Virus record (IMG/VR): IMGVR_UViG_3300042434_001897
Location: 1-25,772 of that record
Length of the DNA stretch: 25,772 nucleotides
Origin: a virus
Direction: 5' to 3' (one strand)
Part shown: positions 1-7,150 of the stretch, piece after piece
How positions within the stretch are numbered: position 1 is the first letter of the stretch
Layout: every line of letters begins with the position of its first letter
Notes under the pieces: model-generated
Databases searched by the model: none
Told to the model about the DNA's origin: nothing
The model's input: the letters and a program-made list of their open reading frames with translations, nothing else
Translations under genes and position numbers: made by a program

Positions 1-14
1 ATCTCCAGGCTCAC
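1..14 (-). CDS. start of next early-operon gene, cut by the window edge
   Basis: A GTG at 14..12 overlaps the stop codon of the WhiB-like gene at 11..13 in the same 4-nt GTGA pattern that joins nearly every gene of this operon. Only the first four codons (V-S-L-E) are visible, so nothing can be said of function. Confidence 0.45.
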
Positions 15-403
15 GCCACCGCCCCTTTCCTGTTCTTCTCTCGCCATTGCCGCTGCCATTCCCTCGTCGCTTCGTTGTGTGCTGCAGCACAGGCCGCACA
101 GGCCGTCTGGCCGTCTCGCCGGTGTCGTTGCCAGCCCCGGTCGGTGCCGCACGCTTCAGAGCCGAACCGCTCCCGGCGCCGCTGCCCCGGTGTCATGCCG
201 CCGACGACCATCACCGGCGACGGGTCGTCCGGCTGGCGCAGCACCCACGCCCGGCACCGGTCGAGGTGCTGGCAGTCGGCGCAGATGGCGAGTGCGTGCC
301 GTTCCTGCCTGGCGCGCTGGTGCTGCGGCCGCCAAGCGTCGACGACCATCTCGTCGCCACGGCCGGTGCAGGCGAGCTGCGCACGCAGTTCGGCAAAGTT
401 CAT
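11..403 (-). CDS. WhiB-like protein with C-terminal Cys module (copy 1)
   Basis: A 130-residue protein with a degenerate WhiB signature. Cys12, Cys41 and Cys44 (CADC) and Cys50 are spaced like the four Fe-S cluster ligands of WhiB proteins, followed by a VVGG turn (about 66-69) where the family has G-[VI]-W-G-G. WhiB proteins are actinobacterial Fe-S transcription factors that bind the sigma factor; phage copies such as TM4 WhiB act on host regulation. After the WhiB part, residues 85-118 hold C-G-T-x-R-G-W-x-x-H and C-A-A-C, a second Cys-rich module also present in the gene at 699-1088. The ATG at 403..401 overlaps the upstream stop (ATGA). The missing Trp in the turn makes this the more divergent of the two copies. 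Family membership is fairly secure; the regulatory target is unknown. Confidence 0.75.
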   Translation of the reverse strand: MNFAELRAQLACTGRGDEMVVDAWRPQHQRARQERHALAICADCQHLDRCRAWVLRQPDDPSPVMVVGGMTPGQRRRERFGSEACGTDRGWQRHRRDGQTACAACAAAHNEATREWQRQWREKNRKGAVA

Positions 404-702
404 GGCTGGCCCCTTTGCCACCAGCGGTCCTTCGTCCTTCTCGGACCACCAGCCACGGCACCGGGCGGTGACGGCCACACCGACCGCTCCGCCTGCGCCA
501 CGGTTGCCGCCTTCATGCTCAACCACTGGGCAGGGGTGAGACGGTGCGGGCCATTCAGGCACGTCACTCGCCCTACCCGGAATTGACGCACGTCGATCTT
601 CGTGCTGACGTCCGACCACTCGACCTTGCCCAATGCGCCGCAGACCGAGCAATGCTCGTCGGCCTCTTCGTAGACCTCGATGTGATGGAAGGTGCCGCTC
701 AT
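400..702 (-). CDS. hypothetical protein with a CxxC motif
   Basis: A 100-residue protein between the two WhiB-like genes, joined to both by ATGA overlaps. Residues 18-21 form C-S-V-C and Cys48 lies in a V-T-C-L-N segment, so a small metal site is possible. The C-terminal third is Arg/Trp/Gly rich. It begins M-S-G-T-F-H-H. I do not recognise a family. Its position between two Fe-S regulators suggests an early host-takeover or regulatory role, which is inference only. Confidence 0.65.
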   Translation of the reverse strand: MSGTFHHIEVYEEADEHCSVCGALGKVEWSDVSTKIDVRQFRVGRVTCLNGPHRLTPAQWLSMKAATVAQAERSVWPSPPGAVAGGPRRTKDRWWQRGQP

Positions 703-1088
703 GCCGCCCTGCCCTGTTTCCGTTCGGCCTTGTAGGCGGCTGCCGCTTCACGACATGACTGGCAAGGTCGCTCGCCCCGGTAGCGGTGCGCCGAGTACCC
801 GCTGGTGGTGCCGTGCTTGATCGGCTTGAGCGTCGTGCCCGGCTTCGGCCCCTTGCGGCCACCCGCCCGTCGCTGCCTCTCCTGCCGCAACTGCCGACCG
901 GACAGACCGCCCCAGATGCCCTCTGTCTCGCCGACCTCGATGGCGAACTCCAGGCACTGCTCGGCCACCGGACAGGTGGCGCAGACCGCCTGGGCGTTGC
1001 GAGCGGTGAACGCATCGCCCCGCTCGGGGAAGAACAGTTCCGGGTCGAGCCCACGGCAGGCGGCGAGGGTGCGCCAGTCAGCGCTCAC
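699..1088 (-). CDS. WhiB-family transcriptional regulator with C-terminal Cys module (copy 2)
   Basis: A 129-residue protein with the full WhiB signature: Cys11, then Cys36-x-x-Cys39-x5-Cys45, and G-I-W-G-G at 57-61 followed by a basic helix (R-Q-L-R-Q-E-R-Q-R-R). These are the [4Fe-4S] ligands and the conserved turn of WhiB proteins, which act with the primary sigma factor. Residues from about 85 on form a Lys/Pro-rich linker and then H-G-T-T-S-G-Y-x-x-H and C-Q-S-C-R-E, matching the extra module of the gene at 11-403. The GTG start (1088) lies inside copy A of the start-associated repeat, with GGAGG just upstream, and overlaps the stop of the preceding gene by 4 nt. Assignment to WhiB is secure; the role of the extra module is unknown. 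Confidence 0.9.
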   Translation of the reverse strand: MSADWRTLAACRGLDPELFFPERGDAFTARNAQAVCATCPVAEQCLEFAIEVGETEGIWGGLSGRQLRQERQRRAGGRKGPKPGTTLKPIKHGTTSGYSAHRYRGERPCQSCREAAAAYKAERKQGRAA

Positions 1089-1102
1089 GACGGGCCTCCT
1101 TG
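1084..1102 (-). repeat. start-associated repeat, copy A
   Basis: Minus-strand core GGAGGCCCGTCGTGAGC. It contains the RBS and GTG start of the WhiB gene at 699-1088 and the stop of the gene at 1085-1345. Confidence 0.85.
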
Positions 1103-1345
1103 CATGGGGGCGACGTTGAAGCCCTCCAACATCTGCCGCATCCTGGCTTGGTGATCCACGTCGTAGGCGTCTGACTGTGCGGCCAATCCATCGACCCAGG
1201 CAGGGAGCATGGCGGCGATCTGGTCGACCACCATCTTGAAGTAGGCCGACGATGTGTAGCGGTGGCGGTGCTTGTCGCCCACCAGGCCAGCGACCAGATG
1301 GCGAAGTGCTGGGCACTCGGAACTAACGTGCGGGTCACCGCTCAC
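1085..1345 (-). CDS. small early protein started by repeat copy B
   Basis: An 86-residue protein beginning V-S-G-D-P-H-V, read from the GTG inside repeat copy B. It ends Q-G-G-P-S because its last codons and stop lie inside repeat copy A. An overlapping frame (1078-1338) lacks this start signal and was not chosen. The middle is mixed helical with His residues (D-K-H-R-H-R-Y); no family is recognised. It belongs to the run of repeat-started genes and is presumably a non-essential early phage protein. Confidence 0.7.
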   Translation of the reverse strand: MSGDPHVSSECPALRHLVAGLVGDKHRHRYTSSAYFKMVVDQIAAMLPAWVDGLAAQSDAYDVDHQARMRQMLEGFNVAPMQGGPS

Positions 1346-1361
1346 GACGGGCCTCCTCCCA
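1335..1361 (-). repeat. start-associated repeat, copy B
   Basis: Longest form of the repeat: core GGAGGCCCGTCGTGAGC with an extra GGA before it and GGTGACC after it. It holds the start of the gene at 1085-1345 and the stop of the gene at 1335-1592. Confidence 0.85.
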
Positions 1362-1592
1362 TGCGCTCAGAGACTCTCGGCCATCGTTCACGCCACATGC
1401 CGTGACATGGCGGCGAAAGTTGTCAGCCATCGCATCGCCAGCGGCCCGCAGCCGCTCGATCTCGTCCAGCATCGCAATGGTCGATTCCTCGGCAACAGCG
1501 ATGAAGCCCCTCATCAAGGTGTTGGGTTGCATCATCCAGACGCCGCCCATCTTGCGGTACTTGCGGTCAGCAAAGATCAGGTCACCGCTCAC
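1335..1592 (-). CDS. small coiled-coil early protein started by repeat copy C
   Basis: An 85-residue protein starting V-S-G-D-L-I-F at a GTG in repeat copy C. It contains a helical E-I-E-R-L-R-A segment (44-50) encoded by an 18-bp sequence shared with the genes at 1582 and 1866. It ends W-E-E-A-R-R-E-R: the last seven codons and the stop are repeat copy B read in a second frame, so it overlaps the next gene by 11 nt. Function unknown. Confidence 0.7.
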   Translation of the reverse strand: MSGDLIFADRKYRKMGGVWMMQPNTLMRGFIAVAEESTIAMLDEIERLRAAGDAMADNFRRHVTACGVNDGRESLSAWEEARRER

Positions 1593-1608
1593 GACGGGCC
1601 TCCTCCCA
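1582..1608 (-). repeat. start-associated repeat, copy C
   Basis: Identical to copy B over the whole length of the long form. It starts the gene at 1335-1592 and ends the gene at 1582-1869. Confidence 0.85.
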
Positions 1609-1869
1609 GCCAGCGAGGGTGTCCTGCGCTGCCTTCCAGACACCGATCACTTCGTCGTGCGTTGCATCGCGCAGCGACGGATCGAACATCTCTTGCAACG
1701 CGACAGCCAGCCTGTCGGCCAGGGCACGCTCGGCGGTGCGCTCGTCCCGCAGCCGCTCGTTCTCGGCCAGTGCGCTACGCACCTCAACCTCCATTTGGTC
1801 ACCAAGGAAGCCGGTCAAAGCGCCGCCGTTCGTCCAATGGCGCATTGTCGGGTAATCGTCCTTACTCAC
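1582..1869 (-). CDS. small coiled-coil early protein started by repeat copy D
   Basis: A 95-residue protein starting V-S-K-D-D-Y-P at the GTG of repeat copy D. Residues 33-60 form a charged helix with E-N-E-R-L-R-D, related to the E-I-E-R-L-R helices of its neighbours. It ends W-E-E-A-R-R-E-R inside repeat copy C and overlaps the next gene by 11 nt, exactly as the following gene does with repeat copy B. Function unknown; the shared helix and shared tail suggest that neighbouring genes are related by duplication or recombination. Confidence 0.7.
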   Translation of the reverse strand: MSKDDYPTMRHWTNGGALTGFLGDQMEVEVRSALAENERLRDERTAERALADRLAVALQEMFDPSLRDATHDEVIGVWKAAQDTLAGWEEARRER

Positions 1870-1882
1870 GACGGGCCTCCTA
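1864..1882 (-). repeat. start-associated repeat, copy D
   Basis: Core AGGAGGCCCGTCGTGAGT; starts the gene at 1582-1869 and contains the stop of the gene at 1866-2114. Confidence 0.85.
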
Positions 1883-2114
1883 TGAGGTAGCCAGGGATGA
1901 GGAATGGCAGCGGCGAGAAACGAGAGCAGTGCCCGCACTGATGCTTGTAGATCGTGGGGTCGGCCGACAGCCGCTCCACCTCGGCACGCAGCCGCTCGAT
2001 CTCGGTGCGGGCGGCGGCGAACTGTTCCCGATAGAACTGGGCACCGCCCAAGCCGCCCCACTGCTCAGCATCGGCTTCCTCTTCGGCAAGCCAATCGCAA
2101 ATGTCACCGCTCAC
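1866..2114 (-). CDS. small coiled-coil and CxxC early protein started by repeat copy E
   Basis: An 82-residue protein from the GTG in repeat copy E (V-S-G-D-I-C-D). It has an acidic N-terminus, a helix with E-I-E-R-L-R-A-E-V-E-R-L (39-49), then C-G-H-C at 60-63 which may bind metal. It ends I-G-G-P-S within repeat copy D, overlapping the next start by 4 nt. No family is recognised. Confidence 0.7.
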   Translation of the reverse strand: MSGDICDWLAEEEADAEQWGGLGGAQFYREQFAAARTEIERLRAEVERLSADPTIYKHQCGHCSRFSPLPFLIPGYLIGGPS

Positions 2115-2127
2115 GACGGGCCCCCCT
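2104..2127 (-). repeat. start-associated repeat, copy E
   Basis: Core GGGGGGCCCGTCGTGAGC with the following GGTGAC; the RBS part is changed to a G run. It starts the gene at 1866-2114 and ends the gene at 2111-2317. Confidence 0.8.
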
Positions 2128-2317
2128 CGGGGTATGGCTGGAACGCGATGACGTGCTTACCTAGGGCGAGCCTGTGGCCGAGGCACATTGGCAAAGTGAA
2201 GAATGTCGCTGCTCCGACACCTTCGCTTCGGACTACATCAACAACGGACTCGGCAGTCATGCCGCACAACGTGCCGTCCTTGCGTTCGCTGGGGTACTCG
2301 CACAGAGGTGTACTCAC
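2111..2317 (-). CDS. small Cys-containing early protein started by repeat copy F
   Basis: A 68-residue protein starting V-S-T-P-L-C-E at the GTG inside repeat copy F. Cys6, Cys18 and Cys45 with nearby His could form a small zinc site (L-C-E-Y-P ... T-L-C-G ... P-M-C-L-G-H). It ends E-G-G-P-S inside repeat copy E. Function unknown. Confidence 0.65.
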   Translation of the reverse strand: MSTPLCEYPSERKDGTLCGMTAESVVDVVRSEGVGAATFFTLPMCLGHRLALGKHVIAFQPYPEGGPS

Positions 2318-2328
2318 GACGGCCCTCC
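2312..2328 (-). repeat. start-associated repeat, copy F
   Basis: Core GGGAGGGCCGTCGTGAGT, the most divergent copy. It starts the gene at 2111-2317 and ends the gene at 2314-2496. Confidence 0.8.
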
Positions 2329-2496
2329 CGCCACCCGCTCGACGATGGCGTCGCACAGCGCCTCGGCCAGTTCGTGAATCTTCAACTGGACGTCCCATTC
2401 GACAATGTCGATCCACGCGCTGCCAGCGTTGGTGTGCGGGTGCCAGCGCTGGTGCAGCACCTCGTCGATGATCGGGTACAGCTCATCCTTCGTCAC
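2314..2496 (-). CDS. small acidic early protein
   Basis: A 60-residue acidic protein (M-T-K-D-E-L-Y-P-I-I-D) starting at a GTG that overlaps the upstream stop by 4 nt, with AGGGAGG as ribosome binding site. It is the first gene whose end is formed by the repeat array (A-G-G-P-S in repeat copy F), although its own start does not carry the repeat. It is predicted to be mostly helical. No family is recognised. Confidence 0.65.
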   Translation of the reverse strand: MTKDELYPIIDEVLHQRWHPHTNAGSAWIDIVEWDVQLKIHELAEALCDAIVERVAGGPS

Positions 2497-2890: not shown

Positions 2891-3093
2891 AGCAGCCCCT
2901 CCTGTCGCCGGTTGCGATGCAACTCGGACAGCCATTGCCGGTTGACGCTCGCTCGGTCGAGGCGGTGGGTCAGTTCTGTGCACTCGTATCGAGCGACGGC
3001 CCTGCCCCACAGCGACGAGTAGTAGCGATAGAGCTTCCGGACAGTGATTCGCTCGGCGAGTTGCAGCTGGTAGCGGTCCTGCCTGATGTTCAC
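2887..3093 (-). CDS. small basic hypothetical protein
   Basis: A 68-residue basic protein, starting at a GTG that overlaps the stop of the RuvC-like gene (GTGA). It has many Arg and Tyr residues (K-L-Y-R-Y-Y-S-S-L-W-G-R) and ends R-N-R-R-Q-E-G-L-L. The charge suggests nucleic-acid contact, and the position right after a resolvase is compatible with a recombination accessory, but this is inference. Confidence 0.65.
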   Translation of the reverse strand: MNIRQDRYQLQLAERITVRKLYRYYSSLWGRAVARYECTELTHRLDRASVNRQWLSELHRNRRQEGLL

Positions 3094-3551
3094 CCCAGCC
3101 CCCTCATCCACCAGTGAGCGAGCAGTGCCGCATCGGCGCGCCCGTCGTCCTTCACCCGGTCGAACAGGTCGTCGAGCGGCCACAGCCGCTGCGCCGCCAG
3201 GCGGTGCGCACCCTTGTCGGCGCCGACGCCGAGGTCCTTCGTCCAGCGTTGCGGCGTGACGTAGGTGACGGGCCGGTCGAGCCCGGCGAGCACGCCTTCG
3301 ATGACGCCGCAGCCACGGCCGAACGAGAACGCCGATGTGGCGCCGGAACCCTGCACGCCCTGCACGTCTTCGACGACGACCATGACGGCCGGGCCGATGT
3401 CGACGAGCAGGTCGCGCAGGTGCCGGGCCGAGATGCGCTTCTTGCCACGCACCTCGATCGTCGGCATGTCCCAGACGAGCACCTCGCCGGCGGCGTTGAC
3501 GACAGCGATGGCGCCGGCGACGCCAGGGTCGATGCCGATGGTGAGGGTCAC
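3090..3551 (-). CDS. RuvC-like Holliday junction resolvase
   Basis: A 153-residue RNase H-fold nuclease. The acidic motifs are in order: G-I-D-P-G (Asp8), V-V-V-E-D-V (Glu61), and D-D-G-R-A-D-A-A-L-L-A (Asp136/Asp140), which is the arrangement of RuvC metal ligands. Length is close to typical RuvC (about 160-175). Such phage enzymes cut four-way or branched DNA before packaging. The GTG start overlaps the previous stop by 4 nt. With the RecB-type nuclease and the SSB-like protein upstream it forms the DNA recombination part of the early operon. Some phage RuvC-like proteins prefer other branched structures, so exact substrate is open. Confidence 0.88.
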   Translation of the reverse strand: MTLTIGIDPGVAGAIAVVNAAGEVLVWDMPTIEVRGKKRISARHLRDLLVDIGPAVMVVVEDVQGVQGSGATSAFSFGRGCGVIEGVLAGLDRPVTYVTPQRWTKDLGVGADKGAHRLAAQRLWPLDDLFDRVKDDGRADAALLAHWWMRGLG

Positions 3552-3736
3552 TGCGCCCACTCCACGCCTTCGAGGCTGTCGGGCACGCCGACCAAGCCGT
3601 GCTCGGCGAGCAGGTCGTTGATCCGGTTGGCGGTCGCACGGTCGGGGCAGGCGATCACACCGGTCGGGCCGACGACCACCCATGCACCGAGGTGGTGCAC
3701 GGAGTGGGCGTAGGTCACCGGGTAGTCGCCGGTCAC
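3548..3736 (-). CDS. small hypothetical protein between HTH and RuvC genes
   Basis: A 62-residue protein starting V-T-G-D-Y-P at a GTGA overlap and ending E-W-A-Q at another. It has a beta-rich first half (W-V-V-V-G-P-T-G-V-I-A) followed by a helix (A-T-A-N-R-I-N-D-L-L-A). Strict coupling on both sides supports it as real. Function unknown. Confidence 0.65.
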   Translation of the reverse strand: MTGDYPVTYAHSVHHLGAWVVVGPTGVIACPDRATANRINDLLAEHGLVGVPDSLEGVEWAQ

Positions 3737-4682: not shown

Positions 4683-6218
4683 TCAGGCCCAGGTGCCGCC
4701 GAGTCGCTCGGCGGCCTGGTCTGCGGTGAGCGGCCGGTCAACCAGCCGCATCACTCCGGTGTCGTCGAAGGCGAGCGTCATGCGCCCCTCGACGAAGGTT
4801 TCGCAGGCGGTCTGGAAGGTCAGCGCTTCCGTCCACCCGAGTGCAGCGATCGCCGCACCAGGCGGGATCGACGCCTGCAACGGCTCGTCACTGTCGAGCG
4901 CAAACGCCGCAGCGGCACGGACGAGGTCGTCGTCCATGCAGTCGTTCTGCGCCAGGACGATCAGTCCCCGCACGATGCGAGTGCTGCGGGTCGTCTTGCG
5001 CTCGGCGAGGTGGAACGACGCCACGGCGCGCGACTGGTCGGCAAGCGCAGCGATCCATGCCCGCTGCACGTCGTCGAGCGCAGCGTGCAACTCACGCATC
5101 TGCACCATGCGCCCCTCGCCCGCAGGCTCACCCTCATCGGGCACCACCCGGGCACGCACCTCGGCGACGTCCACGGTGCGCAGCGGCGCAGGCTCGGTCG
5201 GCAGGTCGGCGAACGGTGCCGAGGTGATCGTCTCGGCCTGCTCGACGATCTGCTGGATCCGGTCGAGCTGCTCGGCGGTGTGGCCGCCTTCGGACAACTT
5301 CGGGCAGCCAGCGGGCCACGCCTCGCGCACCCGCTGGGCGACATCGGGCGACAGGGCGGCGACGGTGCGCAACCGGTCGACGAGGTTGGCGGAACGATCC
5401 GACACGGCGGGTGCGGGCGGCGTAAATCTTGGATTGCTCCAACCATCGACCCGCAGGTCGGAGCGTGAACGCCACGCCCACGTCGGCTGGATGACCCGCT
5501 CGAAGCACTGCCGCCCGGCGGCGATGTCGATACCGATGATCGACGCTTCGCCTTCCATCGGCAGGTGCGCAACCAGCGCCACCGACTGACTGACGGCGTG
5601 CATCGGCACAAACTCGGCGACCTCGAAGTCGGCGTCGCCGGTCGGGCCGTCGGCGCACAGCGGCGCCGATGCGTACAGCCACAGTTGCACGGCGTGCGAC
5701 TGCAGGAAGTCGGCGGCCGACTTGCCGGTCTTGGTGTCGAGGATGAAGCACTCGCCGGTCTTGCGGTGCCGCACCACCCGGTCGAACCGGCCGGCGACCA
5801 TCAGGTCGGGGTGCACGATGACCTGCTCGCTGGCGACGATCTCCAGGTCGTGCGAGTCGAGCAGCGTGCGCCACGTCTCACGGATCGCAACGACCTCGGG
5901 CGTCTCCAACACGAACACGCCACCGTCGAGCAGGTCGGTGATCTTGTGCACGGCGGTGCCGTAGTCCCGGCCCGACGACGCACCGGCAGCGGTCATCGCC
6001 TCCTCACAGATGGCGTCGAGTGCCTTCTTGTCGTCGGCGTTGGCGGCGACAGCGGTCAGCAGGTGCGGTTGCAGAGCGAGCCCGATGGCGGTCTGACGGC
6101 GACGCCAGAAGTCGAGCGCCGAAGAGTCGTCGGGCACCTTGGCGATGGCGCTCGGCGACTTGCACCGCTTGCCGTTCAACCAGTAGCCGTGGGCCTTGGC
6201 GGAGTACTTGAGCTTCAC
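4683..6218 (-). CDS. RecB/Cas4-type PD-(D/E)XK nuclease
   Basis: A 511-residue protein. The N-terminal half has the RecB-nuclease motifs in order: G-T-A-V-H-K (His91), S-E-Q at 130-132, A-G-R-F-D-R (Asp146), I-L-D-T-K-T-G-K (Asp161, Lys163) and Q-L-W-L-Y (Gln178, Tyr182). These are the metal and catalytic residues of RecB/AddB/Cas4-family exonucleases, which resect DNA ends for recombination. The C-terminal part (about 290-511) is helical and unassigned. The GTG at 6218 is preferred because it forms the standard GTGA overlap; longer readings lack a start signal. With the SSB-like protein downstream it resembles a phage recombination pair. I see no Cys cluster of the Cas4 or AddB iron-sulphur type. 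Confidence 0.85.
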   Translation of the reverse strand: MKLKYSAKAHGYWLNGKRCKSPSAIAKVPDDSSALDFWRRRQTAIGLALQPHLLTAVAANADDKKALDAICEEAMTAAGASSGRDYGTAVHKITDLLDGGVFVLETPEVVAIRETWRTLLDSHDLEIVASEQVIVHPDLMVAGRFDRVVRHRKTGECFILDTKTGKSAADFLQSHAVQLWLYASAPLCADGPTGDADFEVAEFVPMHAVSQSVALVAHLPMEGEASIIGIDIAAGRQCFERVIQPTWAWRSRSDLRVDGWSNPRFTPPAPAVSDRSANLVDRLRTVAALSPDVAQRVREAWPAGCPKLSEGGHTAEQLDRIQQIVEQAETITSAPFADLPTEPAPLRTVDVAEVRARVVPDEGEPAGEGRMVQMRELHAALDDVQRAWIAALADQSRAVASFHLAERKTTRSTRIVRGLIVLAQNDCMDDDLVRAAAAFALDSDEPLQASIPPGAAIAALGWTEALTFQTACETFVEGRMTLAFDDTGVMRLVDRPLTADQAAERLGGTWA

Positions 6219-6400
6219 CGCCCGCACCCCCCACGCCGCTCGCTGATGACGATGTTCCACAGCCGGTCGAGGTCGGCGGCACGCTCGTCGAGCTGGTCGG
6301 ACCAGTCCTGTAGCGCTTGGCGCTGCTCGCCGAGTCGCCACAGGGTGACGGCCAGGCCGAGCTGCACGCCGGCAGCGAAGGTGAGGACGTACCAGATCAC
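6215..6400 (-). CDS. small membrane protein with coiled-coil tail
   Basis: A 61-residue protein with one N-terminal hydrophobic helix (W-Y-V-L-T-F-A-A-G-V-Q-L-G-L-A-V, about 3-20) followed by a charged helix (E-Q-R-Q-A-L-Q-D-W-S-D-Q-L-D). Starts at GTG by GTGA overlap. The build (single anchor plus helical tail) is like small phage membrane proteins such as inner-membrane spanins or DUF2746-type proteins; its place three genes from a transglycosylase suggests a cell-envelope role. Confidence 0.65.
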   Translation of the reverse strand: MIWYVLTFAAGVQLGLAVTLWRLGEQRQALQDWSDQLDERAADLDRLWNIVISERRGGCGR

Positions 6401-6663
6401 GCCACACCTCCGTCAGGGTCGATAACGCCAGGGCGCTGCAACCGGGACGGACTCCCGGGAACGCCCTGGCGGCCTGCACCGGCTGGGGATGTGCCGGTGC
6501 GGCGAAGGTGGTGGTCGAGACGGTGGCCGGCGTCACGGACGGCCTGCACGTCGGAGGCGGCAAGTGCCGCCAGGATCAGCCGCACATCAAGCGGCGACAG
6601 TTCATCGACCGACCAGTCGTAGGGTCGGCGGCGACGGGGGCGGAGGTTGACAACGTGGCTCAC
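6397..6663 (-). CDS. small basic hypothetical protein
   Basis: An 88-residue protein with an Arg-rich start (L-R-P-R-R-R-R-P), a helical centre (L-D-V-R-L-I-L-A-A-L-A-A) with His residues, and a Pro/Gly-rich, probably disordered end. Start is the GTG overlapping the stop of the lysozyme-like gene. No family is recognised. Confidence 0.6.
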   Translation of the reverse strand: MSHVVNLRPRRRRPYDWSVDELSPLDVRLILAALAASDVQAVRDAGHRLDHHLRRTGTSPAGAGRQGVPGSPSRLQRPGVIDPDGGVA

Positions 6664-7058
6664 GATGCACACCACCGGGTGCGCTTCGTCGTCCACGGCT
6701 GCCAGCCGCAGCCCATCTGCTGCTCGGCCCGGTCGAACAGTTGCCGGGCGACGGCCAGGTTCGTCGCCGGATCGAACAGCCGACCGAAGTCGCCGTCGAC
6801 CAGCGGCCGCACCCACTTGCGGTGTGCCCGCATGTTCAGTTGCATCAGCCCGTAACTGTCATCCCGGCCCCGGCCGTTGTGCGCCGTGGGCGTGCAGCGG
6901 GACTCACGCCAGATGATGGCGTCGAGCCGTGGCCAGTCGGCCTCCGACCAGCCGGCGTCGAGCGCCGTCTGGCGGTACTCGGGGCAGCGGTCGGCGGTGG
7001 TGCTGGTCGGCGCCGAGCAGTGGCCGAGCAGCAAGGCGAGAGCGGCCAGGGCCTTCAT
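6660..7058 (-). CDS. secreted lysozyme-like (SLT-type) transglycosylase in the early operon
   Basis: A 132-residue protein with an N-terminal signal peptide (M-K-A-L-A-A-L-A-L-L-L-G, cleavage probably near residue 16). Residues 45-53 (L-D-A-I-I-W-R-E-S) place Glu52 as the catalytic acid, and D-S-Y-G-L-M-Q-L-N (67-75) is the conserved motif of goose-lysozyme/soluble lytic transglycosylase folds that cleave the MurNAc-GlcNAc bond. Cys14 is not in a proper lipobox (G-H precedes it). The ATG at 7058 gives an ATGA overlap and removes an unlikely basic extension. It lies far from the main lysis genes (12049-13051), beside two small membrane proteins, so it may act early on the wall or periplasm and not at final lysis. 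Confidence 0.8.
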   Translation of the reverse strand: MKALAALALLLGHCSAPTSTTADRCPEYRQTALDAGWSEADWPRLDAIIWRESRCTPTAHNGRGRDDSYGLMQLNMRAHRKWVRPLVDGDFGRLFDPATNLAVARQLFDRAEQQMGCGWQPWTTKRTRWCAS

Positions 7059-7150
7059 CGGTCGCACCAGCGCAGCCAGGCGTAGGTGCCAGCAGCCCAC
7101 ACCGCCAGGCAGGCGATGGCGGCGATGCGGTCGGACCAGGCGGCGATCAC
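7055..7150 (-). CDS. 31-residue membrane peptide gene
   Basis: A very short frame, GTG at 7150 (GTGA overlap with the gene above) to TGA at 7055 (ATGA overlap with the transglycosylase). It encodes a basic/acidic start, one hydrophobic helix (A-A-I-A-C-L-A-V-W-A-A-G-T-Y-A-W) and a charged end R-W-C-D-R. Without it the operon would have an isolated 88-bp gap here, so coupling strongly supports translation. It could help export or act as a small membrane effector; function unknown. Confidence 0.6.
   Translation of the reverse strand: MIAAWSDRIAAIACLAVWAAGTYAWLRWCDR

Follow-up and report, generated by a model that had tools for sequence, protein, structure and literature searches.

Six near-identical sequences stand at consecutive gene junctions on the minus strand of a viral contig (IMGVR_UViG_3300042434_001897; 25,772 bp, referred to here over its full length as the window), and they raise the question of what such a sequence, holding both a ribosome-binding site (RBS) and a start codon, does at the joints between small genes. 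How phage mosaicism arises has long been argued, with illegitimate recombination set against recombination at short boundary sequences, the latter being rarely found. Here, an array carries an obvious boundary sequence, in about 100 copies and tied to start and stop function, in which sites without a cassette, insertions of one cassette, and transfers from one phage to an unrelated one are directly readable, and the boundary-sequence model becomes testable. Moreover, the repeat shows how frame-independent gene joints can be designed by a simple rule, and it can mark early phage proteins that are still unknown.

The junction repeat in the window

The window has no DNA match among 50,697 phage records, and no tRNA was found in it. 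On its minus strand lie genes for head and tail, lysis, an integrase, a PD-(D/E)XK exonuclease, a RuvC-like resolvase, and WhiB, and because of the WhiB gene and a capsid resembling those of Mycobacterium and Gordonia phages, we infer an actinobacterial host. The array and two genes near it are arranged as follows, all on the minus strand.

4683..6563 (-): PD-(D/E)XK / Cas4-like exonuclease ORF, whose real start is probably further downstream
3090..3683 (-): RuvC-like Holliday junction resolvase, a possible recombination factor upstream of the array
2314..2496 (-): left anchor gene A, 60 aa, ending in GGPS and the stop, in the same place in relatives
2306..2328 (-): junction repeat 6, GGAGGGCCGTC-GTG-AGTACACCT, with the gene A stop in GTGA; starts cassette 1
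2111..2317 (-): cassette 1, an orphan protein of 68 aa
2103..2125 (-): junction repeat 5, GGGGGCCCGTC-GTG-AGCGGTGAC, 4-nt overlap
1866..2114 (-): cassette 2, 82 aa, a mosaic with its N-half like G019_31637/G034_4247 and its C-half like G029_14136
1858..1880 (-): junction repeat 4, GGAGGCCCGTC-GTG-AGTAAGGAC, 4-nt overlap
1582..1869 (-): cassette 3, 95 aa, resembling G001_9759 at its N-terminus
1581..1603 (-): junction repeat 3, exact consensus, 11-nt overlap, upstream gene ending in EARRER and the stop
1335..1592 (-): cassette 4, 85 aa, with 92% identity to G011_35387 over the C-terminal half
1334..1356 (-): junction repeat 2, exact consensus, 11-nt overlap
1085..1345 (-): cassette 5, 86 aa, with a homologue of equal length (G017_2000, 86 aa; 88% identity) in a related contig
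1077..1099 (-): junction repeat 1, GGAGGCCCGTC-GTG-AGCGCTGAC, 4-nt overlap, the site of one extra cassette in G017
699..1088 (-): right anchor, WhiB-like transcription factor, 129 aa

The consensus of the six copies (1077-2328, minus strand) is GGAGGCCCGTC-GTG-AGCGGTGAC, and each copy spans the beginning of one gene (Shine-Dalgarno site, GTG start, and codons 2-4) along with the stop codon of the preceding gene. When aligned on the GTG, the copies are conserved from -11 to about +11 with a pairwise identity of 0.83, as against 0.34-0.38 in the flanks and an average of 0.37 over the same 23 positions at ordinary gene starts in the window. Conservation goes beyond pairing with the 16S rRNA, as it takes in the spacer CCCGTC and codons 2-4. 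That six repeats with an RBS and GTG mark six gene junctions, as originally predicted, was confirmed by a scan with the 16-mer GGAGGCCCGTCGTGAG (up to 3 mismatches), which matched the window exactly six times, always on the minus strand and never outside the array. Four of these matches are exact (1084, 1341, 1588, and 1865) and two have one mismatch each (2110 and 2313), while shuffled windows gave 1.15 matches on average and reached six in 0 of 100 shuffles. The distances from GTG to GTG are 257, 247, 277, 245, and 203 bp, and the six consecutive ORFs so started encode proteins of 68, 82, 95, 85, 86, and 129 aa, the last being WhiB-like. All six junctions overlap, by 4 nt at four of them, with the upstream TGA sitting in GTGA, and by 11 nt at the other two, with the TGA ending GTGAGCGGTGA.

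A hairpin in the RNA that would present the start codon in a GUGA loop (CCG.C-GUGA-GCGG) was considered as a structural element and rejected, its pairs being broken without compensation and its minimum free energy being weaker than that of shuffles. It is the sole plausible hairpin, and no covariation was detected at its pairing positions. Neither close inverted-repeat pairs beside the copies nor promoter matches (in a scan for the sigma-70 consensus) were found. The suggestion that the repeat binds RNA thus gains no support, with covariation and structure both absent.

Copies in other viral contigs and constraint on the nucleotides

A scan of 2.9 million viral contigs with exact and degenerate patterns gave matches mostly in one small contig set. 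About 100 more copies are present in some 25 other viral contigs, spread over several lineages with few other genes in common. With a cutoff of 10 bits, a position model built from the matched contigs found 113 sites, spread over 30 contigs, and the reversed model found 0. The model sites lie at ORF starts, apart from a few (at ORFs of 6 and 16 codons and at one GCG), and the pattern-matched copies are all on one strand within each contig. Copies are thus placed nearly always at gene starts and not inside genes or in random places, which was the outcome that the original prediction had named as refuting it. The G+C content of the repeat-bearing stretches ranges from about 0.53 to 0.69. By gene sharing, which groups the contigs approximately since the ORF lists hold spurious frames and the contigs are partial, the window belongs with G017, G013, G022, G024, G004, G027, G023, and G008, and G011 and G016 have a few more ORFs in common with this group. 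The contigs G001, G006/G002, G007, G019/G034, G020, G021, G032, and G003 have 0-5 ORFs of at least 120 aa in common with most others. Outside the viral contigs, no array was seen in 397 genomes sampled from the phylum of Lentzea (4 lone near matches), the degenerate pattern had one match, a lone copy, in 84,980 species genomes, and isolated phages gave no convincing match (E 0.6 and higher).

Among 100 copies that differ in their flanks, the stop of the upstream gene lies in GTGA (+1) in 38, at +8 (the 11-nt overlap) in 48, and at +5 in 8, and the start frame is avoided by upstream genes, with only one of the 100 looking open there. The two main frame classes agree in their bases almost throughout, yet the upstream proteins end in unlike tails (GGPS vs EARRER). 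Likewise, the codons within the repeat are close to fixed: glycine codon 3 is GGT in 61 copies and GGC in 1, against a background of 22% and 51% (GGC being the usual glycine codon in these genes), and serine codon 2 is AGC in 74 of 77, against a background of 19%. Because of these near-fixed codons, and the bases common to both frame classes, the conserved item is, on the reading of the codons, a DNA or RNA string and not a peptide. The view that the repeat is more than a plain RBS is consequently upheld by this nucleotide-level constraint, by the one consensus serving two upstream frames, and by its spread over several phage lineages.

Cassettes are gained, lost, and transferred at the repeat

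Modular gene exchange between copies, another part of the original prediction, is strongly borne out by evidence that is comparative throughout and comes from metagenome contigs. In relatives too, gene A and WhiB flank the array, and between these same anchors are 0 cassettes in L197, L198, G004/L100/G028, and G027/L193/L194, 1 in G023/G029, 2 in G024 and G013, 3 in L188/G022, 4 in G017 and G008, and 5 in the window, the joints in relatives carrying the repeat or a clear variant (e.g. GGAGCCCAGCC-GTG). The window and G017 share one cassette and WhiB at high DNA identity, and exactly between the two, G017 has one extra cassette and repeat, with the result that the frame in which the upstream gene enters the WhiB junction differs between G017 and the window. 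Closely similar single cassettes also connect contigs with only 1-2 long ORFs in common (G007/G022, G007/G032, G006/G034, and G011/G020), and here, going either way from the cassette, homology ends at the repeat. In G007, the repeat variant GCCTGTCGTGATCG, found downstream of the same cassette in G032, is joined to a cassette known from G022, which puts the crossover within the repeat, near +5/+6. The point of crossover seems not to be fixed, being at the left edge in the window and G017 and at +5/+6 in G007 and G011/G020.

One-sided homology is the rule at the repeat. Within the window group, it was found in 79 of 79 comparisons of repeats but in 336 of 1077 at other starts, and as these pairs are not independent, no p-value is attached. 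When all pairs from different contigs with flank homology were taken, 35 were homologous upstream only, 27 downstream only, and 0 on both sides, these 62 pairs being counted after the removal of six copies with both flanks near-identical, so that near-identical alleles are excluded by construction. The right halves of the repeat tend to follow the downstream gene, though the half-repeat linkage is weak (p about 0.03 and 0.06, for pairs that are not independent). As a side observation from G019 29394, G011, and G008 4061, the variant left half GGTGGTCGTC occurs with the normal right half GTGAGCGGTGAC, and the normal left half is also joined to the other right halves GTGGCTGACGAC and GTGAGCGAACAG, a free combination of halves.

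Many of the cassette proteins are themselves mosaic, as with cassette 2, whose N-half is found in G019 and G034 and its C-half in G029. Here, a second repeated coding segment of about GAGATCGAGCGGCTGCG encodes an EIERLRA coiled-coil linker (repeat family D3; 1442-2009 in the window, minus strand), which recurs inside several cassettes of the window and elsewhere, and the protein halves beside it are exchanged. Internal homology ends near the linker in 33% of cases vs 16% expected, the cases not being independent. Among 25 cassette proteins, the search for known families or defence functions returned only one primase, and the small proteins are presumably early, dispensable, and host-directed.

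Explanations for the repeat and its likeness to known systems

We consider the repeat to be quite probably a frame-tolerant start/stop junction of ~22 bp that doubles as short homology for the swapping of small early genes. As mRNA, it would act as a translation start (GGAGG, a 6-nt spacer, GTG, and MSGD), and since both other frames run into a TGA stop within it (GTGA and GAGCGGTGA), almost any upstream gene would end no more than 11 nt from the next start, with the neighbouring genes being translated in tight succession and presumably coupled. As DNA, it would give small genes that are otherwise unrelated a short stretch of homology. Recombination between copies, either within one genome or between co-infecting phages, could join any cassette to any other, and after a crossover inside the repeat the genes on either side would still have intact ends in any upstream frame. 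Between gene A and WhiB, the array would thereby gain, lose, and swap one-gene cassettes. Such recombination may be carried out by the phage exonuclease and RuvC-like resolvase together with a host or other annealing protein, no annealing protein (RecT, Beta, Erf, or Sak) being recognised in the window. Because the exonuclease and resolvase genes lie near the array, phage-encoded recombination at this site is plausible; 22 bp is short for RecA-type recombination. Separately, the exonuclease ORF (4683-6563) has a long N-terminal part that in relatives is split off by another ORF, so its translation probably begins well downstream of 6563; an intein was considered for these relatives and rejected, the extra sequence being a separate ORF.

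Several other readings were weighed and rated lower. A regulatory site of the start-associated sequence (SAS) type, in which RNA bound by a phage or host factor, or an optimised ribosome site, controls the early genes jointly and shuffling is incidental, would suit the fixed position over the RBS and start, the near confinement to gene starts, and the conservation past rRNA pairing. However, it leaves unexplained both the stops of the two other frames inside the repeat and the switch in homology (79/79 at repeats vs 31% at ordinary starts), and as the repeat lacks a covarying hairpin and its region is less structured than shuffles, we judge it unlikely as the whole account. Even so, a regulatory role of this kind may coexist with exchange, and coordinated translation control by the repeat, as the original prediction had it, is possible. 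The identity of the repeat could also come from selection for expression alone, with gene-end breakpoints merely being the sole tolerated ones. That the peptides are what is kept, with N-terminal MSGD and C-terminal EARRER or GGPS as functional tags encoded by the DNA, would explain why the same peptides recur across cassettes, but the near-fixed codon choice and the reading of the same DNA in two frames to give unrelated tails make this highly improbable.

A similarly low probability goes to the tandem duplication of one ancestral gene with the repeat as its best conserved part; several cassettes do share N-terminal MSGDIVERLR or coiled-coil EIERLRA segments, but most copies have unrelated flanks (a median gapped identity of 50% over 60 nt), and the cassettes are not united by any Pfam or PHROG family. 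Since the data are metagenome contigs throughout, chimeric assembly at short repeats was weighed as well, but is scarcely credible with the same alleles occurring in separate assemblies (G004/L100/G028, G027/L193/L194, L188/G022, G023/G029, and G007/G014). Integron gene cassettes form arrays of one-gene units, each with one copy of a joint sequence, and an integron-like site at which a dedicated recombinase inserts and excises cassettes would fit the unit of one gene plus one repeat and the empty site in several relatives. Yet, unlike in integrons, the repeat contains the start codon, has no attC-like or otherwise supported paired structure, and shows crossover points that appear to vary, and with the only recombinase recognised in the window being an ordinary phage integrase (8256-9374) and not an integron integrase, we regard this as very unlikely.

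The repeat was also compared with described phage elements. The SAS is GGGATAGGAGCCC in Cluster K mycobacteriophages (PMC3203893) and GGGAAAGGACCCC in Microbacterium cluster EF phages (PMC7302621), lying 3-7 bp ahead of starts that are mostly ATG, for the most part after large upstream gaps (>50 bp), and about half with ESAS inverted repeats (PMC3203893, PMC7302621). Like these, the window repeat is short, strictly conserved beyond rRNA pairing, and confined to one strand over the RBS of many non-structural genes of different families. The prediction had noted that its sequence differs from the Cluster K SAS, and in fact the window has 0 matches to GGGATAGGAGCCC with up to 2 deviations. Membership in that class, also proposed, was not supported, as the repeat differs in consensus, extent, and gap/ESAS arrangement: conservation of the Anaya SAS ends before the start, whereas the window repeat extends from -11 to +11 through a GTG, not ATG, into codon 4, holds the upstream stops, and joins genes that overlap by 4 or 11 nt. 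The chain of small, non-essential early genes in the lambda nin region has interlinked ATGA overlaps, with recombination genes among them (PMC8022706), and the six overlapping window junctions are alike in this. Lambda junctions, unlike the repeat, have only ATGA and the Shine-Dalgarno site in common (identity 0.41 vs 0.83).

Closest in role are boundary-sequence exchange and, as far as PMC4503421 describes them, the T4-type PeSLs. Short conserved boundary sequences have been proposed to mediate phage mosaicism, though at most mosaic joints none can reportedly be identified (both discussed in PMC3029335), and Corndog gene 14 is flanked by a 17-bp repeat (PMC4351075). The window repeat resembles these in being a short shared sequence at the joints of unrelated genes, with homology switching there and genes gained or lost between copies, and the few crossovers that map inside it, together with the weak half-repeat linkage, may reflect homologous recombination in the shared sequence. 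In contrast to such single or few cases, the window repeat recurs throughout an array and at about 100 joints in several lineages, and it also serves as the start/stop signal. PeSLs (promoter early stem-loops; Arbiol 2010, Comeau 2014) are promoter-terminator stem-loop motifs that, by the account in PMC4503421, also lie repeated between small early genes and mediate their shuffling, whereas the window repeat is translational, without a promoter match (sigma-70 scan only) or supported stem-loop. On a wider scale, we see an even chance that these (probably actinobacterial) phages have a population-wide cassette system operating without a dedicated recombinase, in which one frame-tolerant stop/start sequence common to several unrelated lineages would make small early genes exchangeable in any order, the EIERLRA linker would shuffle protein halves, and a common pool of small early proteins would result.

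Several further observations concern the surroundings of the array. Among relatives, the N-terminus of WhiB varies exactly at the repeat (1060-1088 in the window, minus strand; G024, G013, and G004), beginning with MSADWR, MSDWR, MSEQ...GTVPADWR, or MADSTMQ..., and the gene looks as if it had been re-joined several times. Downstream of WhiB, a gene at 11-461 (minus strand) has a weak match to WhiB-like PHROGs and is conserved in relatives. Lastly, a lytic transglycosylase (SLT) domain gene (6660-7100, minus strand) is located between the integrase and exonuclease, apart from the lysis genes at 12-13 kb.
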